A stretch of DNA of 64,000 nt from Gemmatimonadaceae bacterium (GTDB taxonomy: Bacteria > Gemmatimonadota > Gemmatimonadetes > Gemmatimonadales > Gemmatimonadaceae): positions 1 to 64,000 of the forward strand of contig DASUHB010000026.1 in the NCBI GenBank assembly GCA_036273715.1. Direction: 5' to 3'. Of this stretch, positions 22,547 through 36,151 are shown piece by piece (position 1 is the stretch's first letter; each line of letters opens with the position of its first letter). The translations under genes were made by a program, and so were the position numbers. The notes under the pieces were generated by a model. That model ran no database searches and was not told the DNA's origin. It saw only the letters and a program-made list of their open reading frames with translations.

Positions 22547-23902
22547 ATGAGACAGATGCAGCCGGTCCTCTGGACGAAGGGCGTGCTCCTGAGTCCCCAG
22601 CACCTGCAGACGCAGGATCGCTTCCTCGAGGACCTCATCCAGTTCCAACTTTCGGGCCTCACCTACTGTCCGTGGGGCTTTCACCGGTTGGAGATCGATC
22701 ACGAGGCGCTGGCCGCGGGATCGTTCGCGATTTCGCAGGCGGCCGGGATTCTGCCCGACGGATTGTTGTTCGATCTACCGGTGAGCGACCCGGCGCCGGC
22801 GCCCAAGGTGCTCGACGCGGTGTGGGAGCAGGACCAGACGGAGTTGGACATCTATCTCGCGGTCCCGGAGTATCGCACGAGCGGGCACAACGTCGCCGTT
22901 GCGGCGGGCGACTCGAGTGCGCGCTATTCGGCGGAAGTGTTGTTGCGTCGCGATGAGAACACCGGGCTCGCCGAGAAGCCGATCCAGGTCGCGAAGAAAA
23001 ACTTTCGGCTGTTAGTCCAGGGCGAGTCGCTCGAGGGAAACTCGACGCTGCGGGTGGCGCGCGTGCGCAAGTCTGCCACGGGCGACCTGTCGCTCGACCC
23101 GCAGTTCGTGCCGCCGCTCATCGACATCGGCGCGAGCGATTTCATCATCGCCATCGCGCGCCGGCTGGTCGAAATCCTGTCGGCGCGGAGCAGTGCGCTC
23201 GCGGGCACGCGCCGGCAGAAGAATCAGAGTCTGGCGGACTTCAGCATCGCGGACGTCGCGAGCTTCTGGCTGCTCTACACGATCAACACGTACTTCCCGC
23301 AGCTCCGTCATCTCTACGAGACGAAGCGCGGGCATCCGGAAGAGTTGTTCAGCGCGATGCTCTCGCTTGCCGGGGCGCTCACGACGTTCTCGACGATCGT
23401 GCATCCGCGCGACCTGCCGGCGTACGAGCACGACGATCTCACGTCGTGCTTCTCGAAGTTGGACGAGCAGCTTCGCATGCTGCTGGAGACGGTGGTGCCG
23501 TCGAACTGCGTCTCCCTGCCGCTGCGGCTGGTGCAGCAGTCGATTTATGCGACGGCGCTCGACCAGGACAAGTATTTCACGGCACCGCAGTTGTATTTAT
23601 CGGTGGACGCGAACATGAGTCCGGCCGATCTCATTCAGCGGGCGCCGGGGTTGATCAAGATTTCATCGGCGGACCGGATCGATCACCTGATCCGCCAGGC
23701 GCTGGCGGGCGTGCCGCTCACGTATGCGCCGAACCCGCCGCCGGCGGTGCCGGTGAAGGTGAGCTCGCACTATTTCCAGGTTGGCAAGAGCGGTAGCGAG
23801 TGGGAGGCGATCATGCGGGCGCGGAACCTGGCGGCCTATGTTCCGGCCGATTTTCCGAGTCCGCAGCTCGAGCTCTTGGTCGTGCTGCCACCACAGCGGT
23901 AA
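22547..23902 (+). CDS. tssK: T6SS baseplate protein TssK, first copy
   Basis: 451 residues of TssK (ImpJ/VasE). The N-terminal shell domain shows VLWTKGVLLSPQHLQTQDRFLEDLIQFQL, WGFHRLEIDHEALAAGSF and GILPDGLLFDLP. The middle has KNFRLLVQGE and FVPPLIDIGASDFI. The C-terminal head has SLPLRLVQQSIYATAL and RAPGLIKISSADRI. TssK trimers tie the baseplate wedge to the TssM/TssL membrane complex. A second full-length copy lies at 26314. This copy stands alone, divergent from the sheath-fusion operon and 147 bases from it, and it contains no heptamer copy. That suggests it serves with the fusion protein and has a different history from the second copy. Confidence 0.93.
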   Translation: MRQMQPVLWTKGVLLSPQHLQTQDRFLEDLIQFQLSGLTYCPWGFHRLEIDHEALAAGSFAISQAAGILPDGLLFDLPVSDPAPAPKVLDAVWEQDQTELDIYLAVPEYRTSGHNVAVAAGDSSARYSAEVLLRRDENTGLAEKPIQVAKKNFRLLVQGESLEGNSTLRVARVRKSATGDLSLDPQFVPPLIDIGASDFIIAIARRLVEILSARSSALAGTRRQKNQSLADFSIADVASFWLLYTINTYFPQLRHLYETKRGHPEELFSAMLSLAGALTTFSTIVHPRDLPAYEHDDLTSCFSKLDEQLRMLLETVVPSNCVSLPLRLVQQSIYATALDQDKYFTAPQLYLSVDANMSPADLIQRAPGLIKISSADRIDHLIRQALAGVPLTYAPNPPPAVPVKVSSHYFQVGKSGSEWEAIMRARNLAAYVPADFPSPQLELLVVLPPQR

Positions 23903-24451: not shown

Positions 24452-26110
24452 TCACTTCTTGATTATGAAGTATGCGATCAGCGCGATCGCCAAAATGACG
24501 ATCACATTGAGCGCGATCACCAACGGCATGTAGGATGGTTTTCGCGGTTGGAGCTGCTGCGCGGCCGCGGTTGCGTTAGGCATAGCGGGCGGCTGCGCGG
24601 CGCCGATCGCGGGCCCTGCCGCGGGCGGCGTCGCCGAGCTCAGGATGCGGGTGAATTCGCTCGGCACGTGCGACGGTTGGCCGGAGGGCGCGGCGAACAC
24701 CGGCGGCGGCAGCGTCGGCACGGGAATCATTGGTGGTGCCGGCGGCGTCGGCGGTTGCGGGATGCCCGAATGGCCGGGCGCCGGCGGCACGGCGCCGAAG
24801 TTAGGCGAAGGCGGTACGGCGCCGACGTGCGGCGCGGGCGGCGCGATGCCGAAGTTAGGCGCGGGTGGCACCGACGGCGCGCGCGGGATCTGCGGCGTGG
24901 GCGGCATGGCCGGCGCGTGCATCGACGGCATCGGCATCGCGCCGAGCCGCGGCTGCGGGATCACGGGCGCCGGCGGCGGCGGAGGGGCGACCGGACGCGG
25001 CTCCGGGGCTCGGGCGATCGGCGCACTCATCATACCCGTCGCGCTTGCAGATCCCGGTGAGGGTGCGGCCGGAGGAAGCACGCTCGGCATCGGCACGAAG
25101 GGCTGAGGCGGCGCTGCCGATGGCGGCGTCGGCATGGCCGGTCGCGGTGGCTGCGGCATCGCGCCGGGCGATGGCGGTGAGTACAGTGGTCCGCTCGGCG
25201 CCGAACGCTCGGCGGGAGACGAGAAACCGCCCCCCTGAAAGATGCGCGTGAACTCGCCGGGCGCAGGCGGCGGGGGAGGTGGCGGGGGCGGCGCCGGCTG
25301 AGCGGCTGGTGGCGCGGGAGGCGGTGCGGCGTGTTGCACGGCCGGCGGAATCGGTTGACTAACGCTGACCGGCGGCGCGGCGGGACGCACCGGAGCCGGC
25401 GGCGGCGGGACGAACGGCGGTTCCGCTTGACGCGCGGGCGAGACCGGCTGCGACGGCGTCGCGGGCGGACCGCCGGTCATCGAATTGAAAAGACGTGTGA
25501 ATTCGCCGGCTTGATTGGGTTTGGGCGCAGGCGGCGCGGGCGGCGGCGGCGGCGGCACCACCGGCGGAGCCGGTGGTGGTGCCGGCGGCGCCTTGGGTGT
25601 CGCGGCGACTGGCGCGATGGGCTGCGTCATGGCGCCGGTCGCGCTCGCCGCCTGTGGCGGCGGAGCGACCGGCGGCGGTGATGGCGGCGCAACCTTCCCC
25701 GCGGCGCCGCCACCCGCCCGAATCGGCTGCGTCGATCCCGCGCGAGACGGCGTCTCATCCGGACGCCGCATCGTGACCTTGATCTGCTTCGCCGGCCCAT
25801 CGCCAGGCGCCGGCGCACTTCGCGTGTGCGACGAAATCCACACGTCGAGCGACTCGAAGCCCTGCAGAAACTGCGTGACCACGACCGGATGGCCTTCGAT
25901 GTCCAGGAGCTCGATCACCTTGAGCCGCTCGACGTCGGGCAGCGCGCGCGCGCGCGCGAGCATGGCGTTATTCTCGTCTGTGGTTCCGACGAGATAATGC
26001 ACCATGACGACTTTGCCGCTCGCCACCGCCAACGCATTGAGCGTGCGGACCTTCCCGTCGGCAACCGGCTTGAGAAGCTGATAGCGTGCGCTGAACTCGG
26101 CGCTTGTCAT
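24452..26110 (-). CDS. Proline-rich, tail-anchored protein with pseudokinase-like N-terminus
   Basis: 552 residues. Residues 1-97 read like the N-lobe of a Ser/Thr kinase (ARYQLLKPVADG as glycine-loop region, KVVMVHYLV where VAIK would be, then VERLKVIELLDIEGHPVVVTQFLQGFESLDVWI as hinge), but the catalytic lysine and the whole C-lobe are missing. About 400 residues of Pro/Ala-rich linker follow, carrying three copies of a short motif at about residues 202, 285 and 484 (GEFTRLF, GEFTRIF, SEFTRIL). The protein ends with one membrane span (YMPLVIALNVIVILAIALI) and KK at the tip. This is a C-tail-anchored cytoplasmic protein. Its place between two tssK genes suggests a scaffold at the T6SS membrane complex. 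I know no named family for the whole chain. Confidence 0.75.
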   Translation of the reverse strand: MTSAEFSARYQLLKPVADGKVRTLNALAVASGKVVMVHYLVGTTDENNAMLARARALPDVERLKVIELLDIEGHPVVVTQFLQGFESLDVWISSHTRSAPAPGDGPAKQIKVTMRRPDETPSRAGSTQPIRAGGGAAGKVAPPSPPPVAPPPQAASATGAMTQPIAPVAATPKAPPAPPPAPPVVPPPPPPAPPAPKPNQAGEFTRLFNSMTGGPPATPSQPVSPARQAEPPFVPPPPAPVRPAAPPVSVSQPIPPAVQHAAPPPAPPAAQPAPPPPPPPPPAPGEFTRIFQGGGFSSPAERSAPSGPLYSPPSPGAMPQPPRPAMPTPPSAAPPQPFVPMPSVLPPAAPSPGSASATGMMSAPIARAPEPRPVAPPPPPAPVIPQPRLGAMPMPSMHAPAMPPTPQIPRAPSVPPAPNFGIAPPAPHVGAVPPSPNFGAVPPAPGHSGIPQPPTPPAPPMIPVPTLPPPVFAAPSGQPSHVPSEFTRILSSATPPAAGPAIGAAQPPAMPNATAAAQQLQPRKPSYMPLVIALNVIVILAIALIAYFIIKK

Positions 26111-26313: not shown

Positions 26314-27669
26314 ATGACGCAACTCTCCAAAGTGGTGTGGCGCGAGGGCATGCACCTGGCCCAGCACCACTTCCAGGCGCAGAACCGCTACTTCGAGGAC
26401 TCCATTCAGTTTGCGGTGTCGCATCTGTTCTTCGCGCCGTACGGACTGATCGGAAGCGAGCTGGATGCGAACGCGCTGCGAAACGGAACCGTTGCGCTGA
26501 TCCACGCGCGGGGCGTCATGCCGGATGGGATGCCGTTTCACATTCCCGATGGAGACGCGGCGCCCGCGCCGCTGGCCATCGGCGAGCTGTTCTCGCCCAC
26601 CGCCGACGCGCACGTCGTCTACTTGACGATCGCGCCGTATCGCCGTGACGCCGCGAACTGCCTGCCCGCCGATGCGGTCGGGCGCGACGGCCGGGGCGTC
26701 CGCTACCTCTCGGAGCCGCACGTGATGCGCGACGAGACCACCGGGCACGACGAGAAGCCGGTGACACTCGGCCGCAAGAATTTCTGGCTCGCGCTCGACA
26801 GCTCGCTCGACGATGGCGCCGTCTCGCTCGCCATCGCGCGCGTCCGGCGCGACGGCAGGGGCAGCTTCGTGTACGACGCGGACTACATTCCGCCGCTGCT
26901 CCAGATCGGCGGCAGCGACCGCCTGATGACGACGCTTGGCCGGCTGGTCGAAATGCTGGACGCCAAGAGCGCTGCGTTAGGCGCGGGCACCGGCCGCCAG
27001 TCGTTAGGCGACTGGGCCAGCCGGGAAGTCGCGATGTTCTGGCTCATGCACGCCGTGCACTCTGCGTTAGGCCCGCTCCGGCATCACCTGCAGGTCAAGC
27101 GCTCGCGCCCCGAGCAGGTGTACGCCGAGTTGTCACGGCTGGCCGGCGCGCTGTGCACGTTCTCGCTCGACGCGCATCCGCGCGCGCTGCCGTCGTACGA
27201 CCACGACCATCTCGACGCCTGTTTCGATGCGCTCGACCGACACATCCGCGCCAACCTCGACATCATCATCCCGACCAACTGCGTGTCGGTGCCGTTGCGT
27301 TCCACATCGGCGTTCATGTACACCGGGCCCGTGAGCGACACGCGGTGCTTTGGCCGCGCCCGCTGGTTTCTGGGAGTACGCTCGAGCGTCGGCGAAGCCG
27401 AGACCATCACGCGCGTGCCGCGCTTCGTGAAAGTCTGCTCGGCCAAGTTCACGCCGGAGCTGGTGAAGCGGGCGTATCCCGGTCTCCCGCTCGAGTACGT
27501 GCAGGCCCCGCCGGCGGCGATCTCGCCGCGCGTCGACGCCCAGTATTTCTCGATCAGCAAAGCCGGCCCGTGTTGGGACACGCTCGTCCAAACCCAAGAG
27601 ATCGGCGTGTACGTGCCCGACGCGCTGTCCGGCGCCGAGGTGCAGGTGCTCGTGCTGCTCGAGTCGTGA
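26314..27669 (+). CDS. tssK: T6SS baseplate protein TssK, second copy
   Basis: 451 residues, the same length as the first TssK but clearly diverged. N-terminus KVVWREGMHLAQHHFQAQNRYFEDSIQFAV and PYGLIGSELDANALRNGTV, then GVMPDGMPFHIPDGD, KNFWLALDSS, YIPPLLQIGGSDRLM, and the head region VSVPLRSTSAFMYTG with VPRFVKVCSAKF. It is 36 bases upstream of tssL and heads the tssK-tssL-tssM operon, so it is the likely partner of the membrane complex. It contains three GTTAGGC heptamers, unlike the first copy. Confidence 0.94.
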   Translation: MTQLSKVVWREGMHLAQHHFQAQNRYFEDSIQFAVSHLFFAPYGLIGSELDANALRNGTVALIHARGVMPDGMPFHIPDGDAAPAPLAIGELFSPTADAHVVYLTIAPYRRDAANCLPADAVGRDGRGVRYLSEPHVMRDETTGHDEKPVTLGRKNFWLALDSSLDDGAVSLAIARVRRDGRGSFVYDADYIPPLLQIGGSDRLMTTLGRLVEMLDAKSAALGAGTGRQSLGDWASREVAMFWLMHAVHSALGPLRHHLQVKRSRPEQVYAELSRLAGALCTFSLDAHPRALPSYDHDHLDACFDALDRHIRANLDIIIPTNCVSVPLRSTSAFMYTGPVSDTRCFGRARWFLGVRSSVGEAETITRVPRFVKVCSAKFTPELVKRAYPGLPLEYVQAPPAAISPRVDAQYFSISKAGPCWDTLVQTQEIGVYVPDALSGAEVQVLVLLES

Positions 27670-31979: not shown

Positions 31980-34631
31980 CTACCGACGGCCCGCGTGCGT
32001 CGTGCGCGCCACAAGCGACTGGAAATTCGTGATCGTCTCGAGCGTCCGCGCGTCCCGATCGGGGCTGTTCATGAGCACGAGCACCCGCCCATCGGGACTC
32101 ATCGCGTGGTTCCACGCGAACGCCGAGAGAAACGACCCTTCGATCAGCAGCGTCGGCTTCCCGGTGTGGAAGCCGCCCGTCGTGGTGACGGGCACGCGGT
32201 AGTAGCGCGAGCGGTCGCGGTACACGATCGCTCTGCCGTTAGGCATCCAGAGCGGCATGTCGCCCTGCTGGGCAATGTGGTAGACGGTGCCCGTCGGCGG
32301 CAGCGGGGTGACGTCCACCGAGCCATCGTCGCCGCCCCACGACAACCACCGGCCGTCCGGGGAAAAGCTCGCCGCCGTGCCGACGCCGCCGGGCACGCGC
32401 GTCGACGTCGTGTCGGGGCCCAGCGACCGAAGATACAGATCGTGCCGGCGCCAGTCCGAGAACACGAACGACTTGCCGTCGGGCGCCACCGTCATGTACG
32501 ACGCGTTGGACAGATGGAGGTTCGTCCACGCGCCCGTGTCCAACGCCTGGATGCGCGCGCCGTAGTTCAGGAACTGCACCGGGTCGAACAGGCCGATCAT
32601 GAGCGCATGGCCGGACGGGAGCCACGACGCCGGAAACGCGCGATAGTTGCCGTCCACCGGCACCTGCTGGCGGACGCCGGTGGCCATGTCCATCAGCATC
32701 ACCTGCCATCCGCCTAACGGATTGCGCACCTGCACGGCGAGCCGGGTGCCGTCGGGCGAGACGCGCGGCTGCGTGTAGGGTCCGCGGGGGAACGGCAGCG
32801 TATCGAGATGGCCGTCGGGCGAGACGAGGGCGACGTTCACGTAGAGCTGATTGGCGCCCGGGACGTAGGTCAGCGTCCCGTCGCCGGAGATCGCGTACTC
32901 GGCGGCTCCGAAGCCCGCTTCCATGCGCACACCGGTGACGACGGGGACCGCTTCGCCTAACACTGCGCGGCGGGCGGCGTCGAACGGCATCGCCGACAGC
33001 TGGCCGTCGCCCGTGGCGTACACGAGGTAGCCGCCGCGGATCCACTGCGGACTCGCACCGAACAAGAGGTCGGATTGTCGCACCGAGTCGAGTGCCAGCA
33101 CGCCGCGCTGCGTGATGGCGAGCTCGGATCCGTTCTCGAGCGACAGGAGCGCGAGCTGCCCCGAGCTGAGCTGCCCGACGAGCCAGCGGCCGCCCGGAAG
33201 GGCGCCCGGCGTGCCGAATTGGGTCGTTAGGCGGGTGACGGAATCGGCGCCGCCGCCCGCTGCGGCCACGCGGTGCAGCTCGAAGCCGTTTCGCTCGAAG
33301 ACCACGATCTCGTCGGGCGTCACCCACACGGCTCCGGTCACGCTCGCGACCTGCGCCAGCGTGATGGGCGTTCCCCCGGTCGACGACACCTTGCGGAGCA
33401 GGTTGCCGCTGACAAAGCCGATCCACGCCCCGTCGGGCGAATAGAAGGGATCGGACGCGCCGTCGCTGCCGGGCACCGCCGCCTCGTCGCCGGTCTCCGC
33501 GGATCGCAGCACGAGCACGGTGGTGCTGCCCTGCGGGGCGACGTACGCCAGCTGCTTGCCATCGGGCGACGCCGCCATGGCGCTGTACCAGCCCCCGGGG
33601 GTCGACGGACCAACGAGCGCGACGCTTTCGTTAGGCGGCAGGACGATGTTCCAGCGGTGCGGTGTCGTGTCGACGGGGGGCCGCCGGAGCGACGCGGCGA
33701 GCGCACCGAGCCCGATGCCGACGATGAGCGCGGCAGCGAGCCCGAGCAGCATCGGACGCCCGCTCGCCCGGCCGCCCACGACGCCCGGGGCCGGCACCGT
33801 GAGCGCCGCGCGAAATTCCGATGCCGTGGCGAAGCGATCGGCTGGCAGTTTCTCGAGCGCCTTGCGCACGCAGTCGTCGAGCTCGGCCGGCACGGTCCGC
33901 CGCTGGGCATGCAGGCGCCGCGGCTCCTCCGTCATCACGCGCGCGACGATGGCCTGGGCCGTCGGGCCGGAAAACGGCGGCTCCCCGGCCAGCATCTCGT
34001 ACACCACGCAGCCTAACGCATAGATGTCGACGCGCGGCGTGAGCGCCCGGTCGCCCATCGCCTGCTCGGGGGCCATGTAGGCGGGCGTCCCGAGACTCAA
34101 GCCGGTTTCCGTTAGGCGGACCGCCGCCGGGCCGCCGCTGGCCGCGAGCGCGATGCCGAAATCGGCGACCACCGCGTGCCCGTCCTGCAGGAGGATGTTC
34201 TCCGGCTTGATGTCGCGGTGGATCACGCCATGCTCGTGCGCGTAGCCGAGCGCGTCCGCCACCTCCGAGGCGATGCGCACCGCGTCGACCACGGGCAGCT
34301 GCCCCTCGCGCTCGAGGCGGTCTCGCAGACTCACCCCCTTCACGAACGGCATCACGTAGAACACGGTCCCGTCGATTTCGCCGGAATCGTGCAGCGCGAG
34401 GATGTGCGGGTGCTGGAGCTGCGCGGTGGTCCGGATCTCGTGGAGAAAGCGCTGCGCGCCAACGATGGCTGCCAACTCCGGCCGCAGCACTTTGAGGGCG
34501 ACGGGTCGATCGTGGCGCACATCGTGCGCGAGGTACACGGTCGCCATGCCGCCACTGCCGAGCTCGCGCTCGATGACGTAGCGTTGGCTGAGTGCGGTCG
34601 AAAGCCGGAGGAGATCGTCCGAGCCGGGCAC
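31980..34631 (-). CDS. Serine/threonine protein kinase with extracytoplasmic beta-propeller
   Basis: 883 residues. Residues 15-280 are a complete Hanks kinase: ELGSGGMATVYLA loop, VALKVL lysine, HRDIKPENIL catalytic loop, ADFGIAL, GTPAYMAPEQ. One membrane span follows (MLLGLAAALIVGIGLGALAASL). The remaining 550 residues form WD40/TolB-like repeats, each with an SPDG or near SPDG turn (AASPDGKQLAYVA, SPDGAWIGFVSG, VSPDGTRLAVQV, SPDGRWLSWGG, MSPDGRVLVL). The propeller would face the periplasm and act as a sensor. This design is abundant in Gemmatimonadota. It converges on tssM with only 54 bases between stops. T6SS control by kinases is known elsewhere, but a role here is only suggested by position. 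The start is a GTG at 34631. Confidence 0.92.
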   Translation of the reverse strand: MPGSDDLLRLSTALSQRYVIERELGSGGMATVYLAHDVRHDRPVALKVLRPELAAIVGAQRFLHEIRTTAQLQHPHILALHDSGEIDGTVFYVMPFVKGVSLRDRLEREGQLPVVDAVRIASEVADALGYAHEHGVIHRDIKPENILLQDGHAVVADFGIALAASGGPAAVRLTETGLSLGTPAYMAPEQAMGDRALTPRVDIYALGCVVYEMLAGEPPFSGPTAQAIVARVMTEEPRRLHAQRRTVPAELDDCVRKALEKLPADRFATASEFRAALTVPAPGVVGGRASGRPMLLGLAAALIVGIGLGALAASLRRPPVDTTPHRWNIVLPPNESVALVGPSTPGGWYSAMAASPDGKQLAYVAPQGSTTVLVLRSAETGDEAAVPGSDGASDPFYSPDGAWIGFVSGNLLRKVSSTGGTPITLAQVASVTGAVWVTPDEIVVFERNGFELHRVAAAGGGADSVTRLTTQFGTPGALPGGRWLVGQLSSGQLALLSLENGSELAITQRGVLALDSVRQSDLLFGASPQWIRGGYLVYATGDGQLSAMPFDAARRAVLGEAVPVVTGVRMEAGFGAAEYAISGDGTLTYVPGANQLYVNVALVSPDGHLDTLPFPRGPYTQPRVSPDGTRLAVQVRNPLGGWQVMLMDMATGVRQQVPVDGNYRAFPASWLPSGHALMIGLFDPVQFLNYGARIQALDTGAWTNLHLSNASYMTVAPDGKSFVFSDWRRHDLYLRSLGPDTTSTRVPGGVGTAASFSPDGRWLSWGGDDGSVDVTPLPPTGTVYHIAQQGDMPLWMPNGRAIVYRDRSRYYRVPVTTTGGFHTGKPTLLIEGSFLSAFAWNHAMSPDGRVLVLMNSPDRDARTLETITNFQSLVARTTHAGRR

Positions 34632-34888: not shown

Positions 34889-34948
34889 CTTGGGGTGGCC
34901 GTTTCACCGCCGTGTCTCGAACGCGTCGCTGCTTCCCGGAACTATCGT

Positions 34949-36151
34949 ATGGCGACTCAGCGCAATCCCAGCACAACCGCTCGCGTCACGCGCCTCCGCG
35001 GGTTGCAACCGAGCGGACTCTCGGTCGAGCCGGGAGCAGTGGCGCACAGCTCCGAGACCGGTCGCACCTATCGGCTCGAGCGGATGATCGGCAGCGGCGG
35101 CTTCGGCAAAGTGTATCTGGCCACGACCACGCTTGCGTCGGGCGCCACCTTCAACGTGTGCATCAAGATCAGCGACAATCTCGCCGGCTGGCTGCGCGAG
35201 GCGTACTTCGCCGAGCTGTTGGCGTCGCAGGAACGCGCCCTGCGCATCATCGACCGGTTCGCCGAATTCGCGAACGGCGCGATGCGATACTGCCTCGCCA
35301 TGGAATACGCCGAGCATGGCGACCTGGGCTCGTGGCTCGAGCGCGTGGGTCCACAGACCGAGCGCTACGTGCGCCGCGAAATCGCCGCCATACTCGGCGT
35401 GCTCGACGCGCTGCACCGCGGGCAGGCGCTGCACCGCGACCTCACGCCGTTCAACGTATTCGTGTGCGAGGGCGGGCACCTCAAGCTCGGCGACTTCGGC
35501 ATCGCGACGCACCAGCTCAATCGGCGCGGCGTGACGGCCGATGCATTCAACCGGATGCACGCGCCCAACGAGATCGCATGGGGTCGCGTGCGGCGGTGGC
35601 AGAAGCGCGACGATGTCTATCAGATCGGACTGCTCGCGGTGATGCTCCTGCGCGGCGACATCTCGAGCGCCGTCCGCAGCAAGGATGTGCGCACCCTGCC
35701 CTGCAGCGATCACCTGAAGGAAGTCATCCATGGATGCCTCGGCTCGCGCGGCAAACGCTATGACGCCGCGCGCGAATTGATCGAGGCGCTGCGACACCGC
35801 GCGAGGCAGCCCAGGCTGGGGCGCGTCGAACGACTGGCCGGCAAGCGGGTTTCGTTCACCGGATTCCTCGTGCGTCCGCGCGCGGCGGCGATCGCGGCGG
35901 CGAAGAAGGCCGGCGCGATCGTGCAGTCGACGCCCGGCGCGACGACGGACATTCTGGTTCGCGGCCGGCCTAACAAGCAACAGATCGCGGGCAAGGACGG
36001 CGGCTCGAAGCTGATCGAGGTGCGCCGTCTCGCGGCCAAGGGCCACAAGGTGACGGTGATCGGGGAGCGGCTGTTCTGGAAGCTCGCTGAGCCCCCGGCG
36101 CGCAAACGGGCCAAGCAGGTGTCGCCACCCTCAAAGCGAGGAAGGCTGTGA
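34949..36151 (+). CDS. Protein kinase fused to a BRCT-like domain
   Basis: 400 residues from the ATG at 34949 (GGAA 7 bases upstream); a GTG at 34895 could add 18 residues. The kinase domain (about 35-285) has the loop GSGGFGKVYLA, lysine in CIKIS, catalytic loop HRDLTPFNVFV (Thr where most Hanks kinases have Lys) and DFG in LGDFGIA. From about 296 to 383 the sequence reads as a BRCT domain of the DNA-ligase type: LAGKRVSFTGFLVRPRAAAI, then AKKAGAIVQSTPGATTDILV, GSKLIEVRRLAAKG and RLFWKL. A short basic tail ends the chain. BRCT domains bind DNA ends or phosphopeptides. The fusion to a kinase is unusual in bacteria and suggests phosphorylation tied to DNA damage or to a phosphopeptide-read signal. 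No membrane span. Confidence 0.8.
   Translation: MATQRNPSTTARVTRLRGLQPSGLSVEPGAVAHSSETGRTYRLERMIGSGGFGKVYLATTTLASGATFNVCIKISDNLAGWLREAYFAELLASQERALRIIDRFAEFANGAMRYCLAMEYAEHGDLGSWLERVGPQTERYVRREIAAILGVLDALHRGQALHRDLTPFNVFVCEGGHLKLGDFGIATHQLNRRGVTADAFNRMHAPNEIAWGRVRRWQKRDDVYQIGLLAVMLLRGDISSAVRSKDVRTLPCSDHLKEVIHGCLGSRGKRYDAARELIEALRHRARQPRLGRVERLAGKRVSFTGFLVRPRAAAIAAAKKAGAIVQSTPGATTDILVRGRPNKQQIAGKDGGSKLIEVRRLAAKGHKVTVIGERLFWKLAEPPARKRAKQVSPPSKRGRL

Follow-up and report, generated by a model that had tools for sequence, protein, structure and literature searches.

The stretch of DNA analyzed here, hereafter the window, comprises 64,000 nucleotides of a contig from a Gemmatimonadaceae bacterium (DASUHB010000026.1, positions 1 to 64,000 of the forward strand) and carries a gene for a protein in which an N-terminal Hanks-type protein kinase is followed by a single BRCT domain of the DnaQ/LigA/RFC1 type (Table 1). 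The reading frame begins with the ATG at 34949 and ends with the TGA stop codon at 36149–36151, and its boundaries and motifs are exactly those given in the original prediction, which had been made from the sequence; the kinase plus BRCT architecture proposed there was likewise borne out by profile searches, an AlphaFold model and Foldseek. An alternative in-frame GTG start is possible at 34895, but the alignment with a 95% identical orthologue starts at the ATG at 34949. The chain appears to be soluble, and the confidence of the model is moderate (pLDDT 71 for the whole chain and 77 for the BRCT domain).

Table 1. Features of the kinase-BRCT gene, in window coordinates
Feature	Residues	Position	Strand	Basis or remark
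Kinase-BRCT gene, whole		34949..36151	+	ATG to TGA, 400 aa
Hanks-type protein kinase domain	~40-283	35066..35797	+	Pfam Pkinase, E = 3.4e-23; Foldseek
Catalytic loop HRDLTPFN	162-169	35432..35455	+	Invariant in 25/25 orthologues
DFG metal-binding motif	182-184	35492..35500	+	Orthologue alignment
BRCT domain	~295-381	35831..36091	+	NCBIfam, hhalign, AlphaFold model, Foldseek
T304-G305, predicted phosphate-pocket positions, end of strand 1	304-305	35858..35863	+	Invariant; alignment to LigA/RFC-type BRCTs
R311 of invariant PR pair, candidate phosphate-binding Arg, helix 1	311	35879..35881	+	Alignment, conservation
K354, candidate phosphate-binding Lys, start of helix 2 (GG-x-K; GSKL in the window)	354	36008..36010	+	Invariant
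Basic C-terminal tail, variable between orthologues		36092..36148	+	Orthologue alignment; model of low confidence

The gene is located just beyond TssM of a type VI secretion system (T6SS) cluster that encodes a ClpV-type ATPase, VgrG, TssC, TssE, TssF, Hcp, TssK, TssL and TssM, and the same adjacency was found at three orthologue loci from the genus of the window (L032, L033 and L056). The cluster (4756–31925) also holds PAAR-like and TssB-like genes and, unusually, two divergent copies of TssK (22547–23899 and 26314–27666), between which a reverse-strand gene (24455–26110) encodes a 552-residue proline-rich protein that has no Pfam match, is conserved at L056 and resembles a kinase N-lobe, by eye, at its N-terminus. 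An ordinary Gemmatimonadota kinase with a PD40 β-propeller is encoded on the reverse strand at 31983–34631, where its gene converges with TssM and runs divergently from the kinase-BRCT gene; it is also present at L032, and a different gene lies upstream of the kinase-BRCT gene at L033 and L056. Farther downstream, the forward-strand segment 44385–45157 appears by eye to encode a pair consisting of a Phd-type antitoxin and a PIN-domain toxin.

Kinase and BRCT domains

The closest solved structures to the kinase domain in the Foldseek search are Mycobacterium tuberculosis PknB and other kinases. All of the elements that define a Hanks-type kinase, namely the glycine loop, the β3 lysine, the αC glutamate, HRD...N and DFG, are present, and G48, G50, G53, K73, E84, H162-R163-D164, N169, D182 and G184 are invariant in 25 of 25 orthologues, one of which has Tyr in place of the DFG Phe. 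Because the catalytic residues are invariant, the kinase is predicted to be catalytically competent. The sub-signature HRDLKPxN, which is typical of Ser/Thr-type kinases but does not define them, is altered in all 25 orthologues by Thr166 in the position of Lys, and the segment after DFG (THQ..RRGVTADAFN...AP.EIAWG) is strongly conserved, unusual in sequence and modelled with low confidence. The protein shares its kinase fold with PknB and other bacterial Hanks-type kinases and differs from them in this Lys-to-Thr replacement and in the unusual activation segment; unlike PknB, which is membrane-bound and carries PASTA domains, the kinase-BRCT chain is apparently soluble. Since the fold is Hanks-type and not PI3K-like, the protein is not a member of the eukaryotic PIKKs, and its kinship to DNA-PKcs and ATM is at most a functional analogy.

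On the window protein alone, the Pfam BRCT profile scored below threshold (E = 0.041, 14.6 bits, with a cut-off of 21.3), so that a check by Pfam only would be misleading and the domain would be called absent, whereas the same profile matched eight of 11 orthologues with a best E-value of 1.7e-4. The NCBIfam model PRK06195 (DnaQ-BRCT) matched residues 292–379 of the window protein (E = 5.1e-6), each of the first 11 orthologues and every one of the 25 isolated tails, and hhalign aligned the tail family with bacterial BRCTs over 90 columns (98.5% probability, E = 1.6e-15). In the AlphaFold model, the tail has the β-α-β-β-α-β-α order of BRCT domains, with predicted strands at 300–304, 324–326, 335–338 and 369–372 and helices at 311–320, 353–363 and 373–380, and W377, the conserved tryptophan of helix 3, is found in 25 of 25 orthologues. 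Foldseek against the PDB with the BRCT domain gave an RNA polymerase–LigA model as the top match and the RFC1 BRCT as the second-best group; the nearest solved BRCT folds are thus those of LigA and RFC1 bound to nicked or gapped DNA. Profile, profile-profile and fold comparisons agree that the tail is a genuine BRCT domain, and a chance motif is ruled out by profile, fold and conservation. The tail profile also matched designed WRAP repeats in the PDB, but these matches only added up numerous very short partial alignments and were disregarded.

With regard to subtype, the isolated tails were matched best by the DnaQ-BRCT type (E = 7.6e-7, against 0.018 for LigA), and the only other proteins with a related tail that the family's BRCT profile found in the phylum were DnaQ-BRCT exonucleases (approximately 2e-11). 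These DnaQ-type 3'-5' exonucleases (PRK06195) have the BRCT subtype in common with the kinase-BRCT protein, including a longer loop before helix 2, and differ in the effector, which is an exonuclease instead of a kinase. Two 405-residue reading frames among them (L121 and L122) have an extra in-frame N-terminal stretch, and a near-identical shorter paralogue occurs in the same genome. The BRCT of NAD-dependent DNA ligase LigA shares the fold and the T-G and Arg positions, and that of Thermus thermophilus LigA aligns without gaps through a common T-G-x-L-x-R-P-R pattern; however, the kinase-BRCT protein possesses no ligase domains, and its sequence match to LigA is weaker than that to DnaQ-BRCT. 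The Hanks-type kinase with HRDLTPFN in the original prediction therefore holds, with a Pfam E-value of 3.4e-23 and all catalytic residues intact, and the profile and structure check on which its BRCT domain had been staked returned a match on both counts. The proposed likeness to LigA stands for the fold and gives way to DnaQ-BRCT for the closest subtype. The description of the combination as eukaryote-like is not the best one, since DnaQ-BRCT, the closest relative of the domain, and LigA, the next closest, are both bacterial, and the fusion therefore looks as though it was assembled from bacterial parts.

Six residues of the BRCT domain, T304, G305, P310, R311, K354 and W377, are the same in all 25 orthologues. 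The phosphate-binding signature of RFC1/LigA-like BRCTs, consisting of T-G after strand 1, an arginine in helix 1 and a lysine at the start of helix 2, is present, and T304, G305, R311 and K354 occupy the positions that, from RFC1 and BRCA1-type BRCTs, we take to form the phosphate pocket.

Distribution and genomic neighbors of the fusion

A survey of related genomes, suggested together with the original prediction, revealed a conserved fusion in some 35 Gemmatimonadota genomes. Orthologues were found in 11 of 60 relatives searched and in 29 of 250 genomes of the order (12%), distributed patchily over 13 of 75 genera, and 27 were recovered from GTDB contigs by a scan with two family-specific peptides, which reaches fusions close to this family. 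Full-length orthologues are 61–95% identical, and both domains are kept in every full-length copy recovered; together with the occurrence of the same fusion in some 35 genomes, this rules out a frameshift or an assembly artefact. The copies at L052, L054 and L055 look frameshifted, as expected of draft metagenome-assembled genomes. All of the orthologues are from Gemmatimonadota except L038, which is on a contig labelled Chloroflexi; because it is near-identical to L053 and has the same neighbor on a contig of 4.7 kb, this contig is probably misbinned. In the kinase tree, sequences from the two families of the order are intermingled (L051 and L047, for instance, are placed among sequences of family f1), so losses or transfers of the gene within the phylum are likely. 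An origin as a phage or plasmid gene was rejected, as neither a relative on a viral contig nor a plasmid record with 80% coverage of the gene was found. A role as an anti-phage defence kinase was also rejected, because the PADLOC matches are generic to kinases and the ordinary neighboring kinase scores far higher. A literature search, of incomplete coverage, found no description of a bacterial kinase-BRCT fusion, and the portions consulted of a review on BRCT domains give no such fusion (PMC10386641).

Most orthologues, including that of the window, lack a repair gene within 8 kb, and repair genes recur beside the kinase-BRCT gene in two lineages other than the genus of the window. A stand-alone ATP-dependent ligase gene adjoins it at L041 and L052, and Prim-Pol is encoded nearby, in differing arrangements, at L039, L042, L052 and L054; in the kinase tree, this linkage belongs essentially to one clade. 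The ligase and Prim-Pol neighbors are like the components of the mycobacterial LigC and Prim-PolC base-excision repair system (PMC5663958), with putative orthology. A gene for an AlkZ-like DNA glycosylase lies directly downstream at L048, 3.5 kb away at L044, and adjacent in divergent orientation at L051, the last of which belongs to a distant kinase clade. AlkZ within 6 kb was seen in three genomes against 0.04 expected (14 AlkZ matches, 25 genomes), and in five of 25, against 0.7 expected, the neighborhood of 8 kb held Ku, Prim-Pol, ligase or AlkZ; these enrichments are suggestive only, because the expectations presuppose random gene placement, take no account of kinship and were calculated once the neighbors were known. 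The linkage to repair genes is thus suggestive and lineage-specific.

A possible role as an accessory factor in Ku/LigD end joining was gauged from co-occurrence. Of the 29 genomes with the kinase-BRCT gene, 28 also encode Ku, compared with 124 of the 221 other genomes (Fisher p = 8e-6); for Prim-Pol, the corresponding counts are 28 of 29 and 132 of 221 (p = 2e-5). Counted by genus, the association with Ku is not significant (12 of 13 against 47 of 62, p = 0.28), so that phylogeny and genome size may explain its co-occurrence, and one genome (G164) carries the kinase-BRCT gene but neither Ku nor a LigD-type Prim-Pol nor an ATP-dependent ligase. SOS regulation was rejected, as no common SOS-type palindrome was found upstream. 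The other neighbors vary widely and include transporters, esterases and a lanthionine synthetase-like gene. At L036 (6970–9056), a PP2C phosphatase gene lies directly upstream on the same strand and may form a kinase-phosphatase pair, and at L051 (9184–12627) a large AAA_16/TPR (STAND-like) gene lies directly downstream.

Possible function of the kinase-BRCT protein

From the two folds with intact catalytic and pocket residues, the conserved fusion and the lineage-specific repair linkage, we infer what follows on the ligand, the gating or activation of the kinase, its substrates, the phenotype and the role in repair. The reading tentatively preferred here is that the BRCT domain docks on nicked, gapped or 5'-phosphorylated DNA, or on repair proteins bound there, and that the kinase signals from repair intermediates. 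The pocket formed by T304, G305, R311 and K354 may bind nicks, gaps or ends that carry a 5' phosphate, or the proteins at these sites; docking could then concentrate or activate the kinase at repair intermediates, by tethering or gating, and the kinase may phosphorylate repair or cell-cycle proteins there. The isolated BRCT of RFC1 binds DNA at approximately 10 nM with a preference for a 5' phosphate, and its deletion sensitizes yeast to MMS (PMC9293009). This BRCT of RFC1 (p140), a binder of 5'-phosphate DNA ends, is the model and a strong precedent by analogy for the proposed DNA-binding mode, although RFC1 is a clamp loader subunit without a kinase. Several observations speak against the preferred reading: most loci have no repair gene nearby, the neighbors in the genus of the window belong to the T6SS, the ligase and Prim-Pol linkage is essentially confined to one clade, the association with Ku loses significance by genus, an SOS-type motif was not found upstream, many BRCTs bind only proteins, and the confidence of the model is moderate.

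Most of what is known of DNA-damage signalling in bacteria concerns LexA/RecA, and kinase-based examples are few; one of these, RqkA, is a quinoprotein kinase without a BRCT domain. RqkA is a DNA damage-responsive Ser/Thr kinase of Deinococcus radiodurans and provides a precedent for a Hanks-type kinase in the bacterial DNA-damage response (PMC6052341). A stronger version of the preferred reading, in which a BRCT domain that senses nicks or 5' phosphates directly gates a kinase acting on base-excision or end-joining factors, would make the protein a single-polypeptide DNA-break kinase and is considered doubtful.

Reading of nicked DNA or of phosphopeptides, with signalling by phosphorylation as suggested in the original prediction, would be consistent with the invariant pocket residues and with the repair neighbors in some lineages, but the gene of the window and its genus has T6SS neighbors. 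In other BRCTs, the same pocket residues bind phosphopeptides, and the BRCT domain here is in the same chain as a kinase. The domain may thus bind a phospho-Ser/Thr peptide, either an autophosphorylation site or a phosphorylated substrate, in an FHA-like manner that would result in processive phosphorylation or self-assembly instead of DNA sensing. The BRCT review lists three single BRCTs that prefer phosphopeptides (PMC10386641), and the PP2C gene at L036 would fit such a role. However, this adjacency occurs at one locus only, and the nearest relatives of the domain by both sequence and fold are the BRCTs of DNA enzymes (DnaQ, LigA and RFC1), and the phosphopeptide role is accordingly regarded as rather unlikely.

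Many BRCTs bind proteins only, and a BRCT domain with a degenerate pocket could be a homodimerization or partner scaffold for a kinase in an unrelated housekeeping signal; the widely varying neighborhoods and the accessory nature of the gene (12% of the order) are in keeping with this, but the pocket residues are invariant and not degenerate, which makes such a dock unlikely. Control of the neighboring T6SS by a PpkA-like kinase in a threonine-phosphorylation pathway, for which the position just past TssM in the window and three genomes of its genus speaks, is highly improbable and was rejected as a general role, because the linkage is confined to this genus, no other orthologue locus tested matched the T6SS proteins of the window, the cluster is not co-directional throughout, and a separate kinase gene on the opposite strand intervenes in the window.

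Each half of the protein, the Hanks-type kinase and the BRCT domain, is known, and the new part is their stable combination and the possible link to repair. The fusion shows kinase-BRCT coupling arising inside bacteria, and because a reader of DNA ends or phosphorylated sites and a kinase are in one chain, the question of whether a nick leads to phosphorylation becomes testable with one purified protein. The kinase-BRCT protein may be a one-piece bacterial sensor that converts DNA nicks into a phosphorylation signal; if the single-chain break kinase were true, it would be a functional counterpart, made of bacterial modules, to the damage kinases of eukaryotes.
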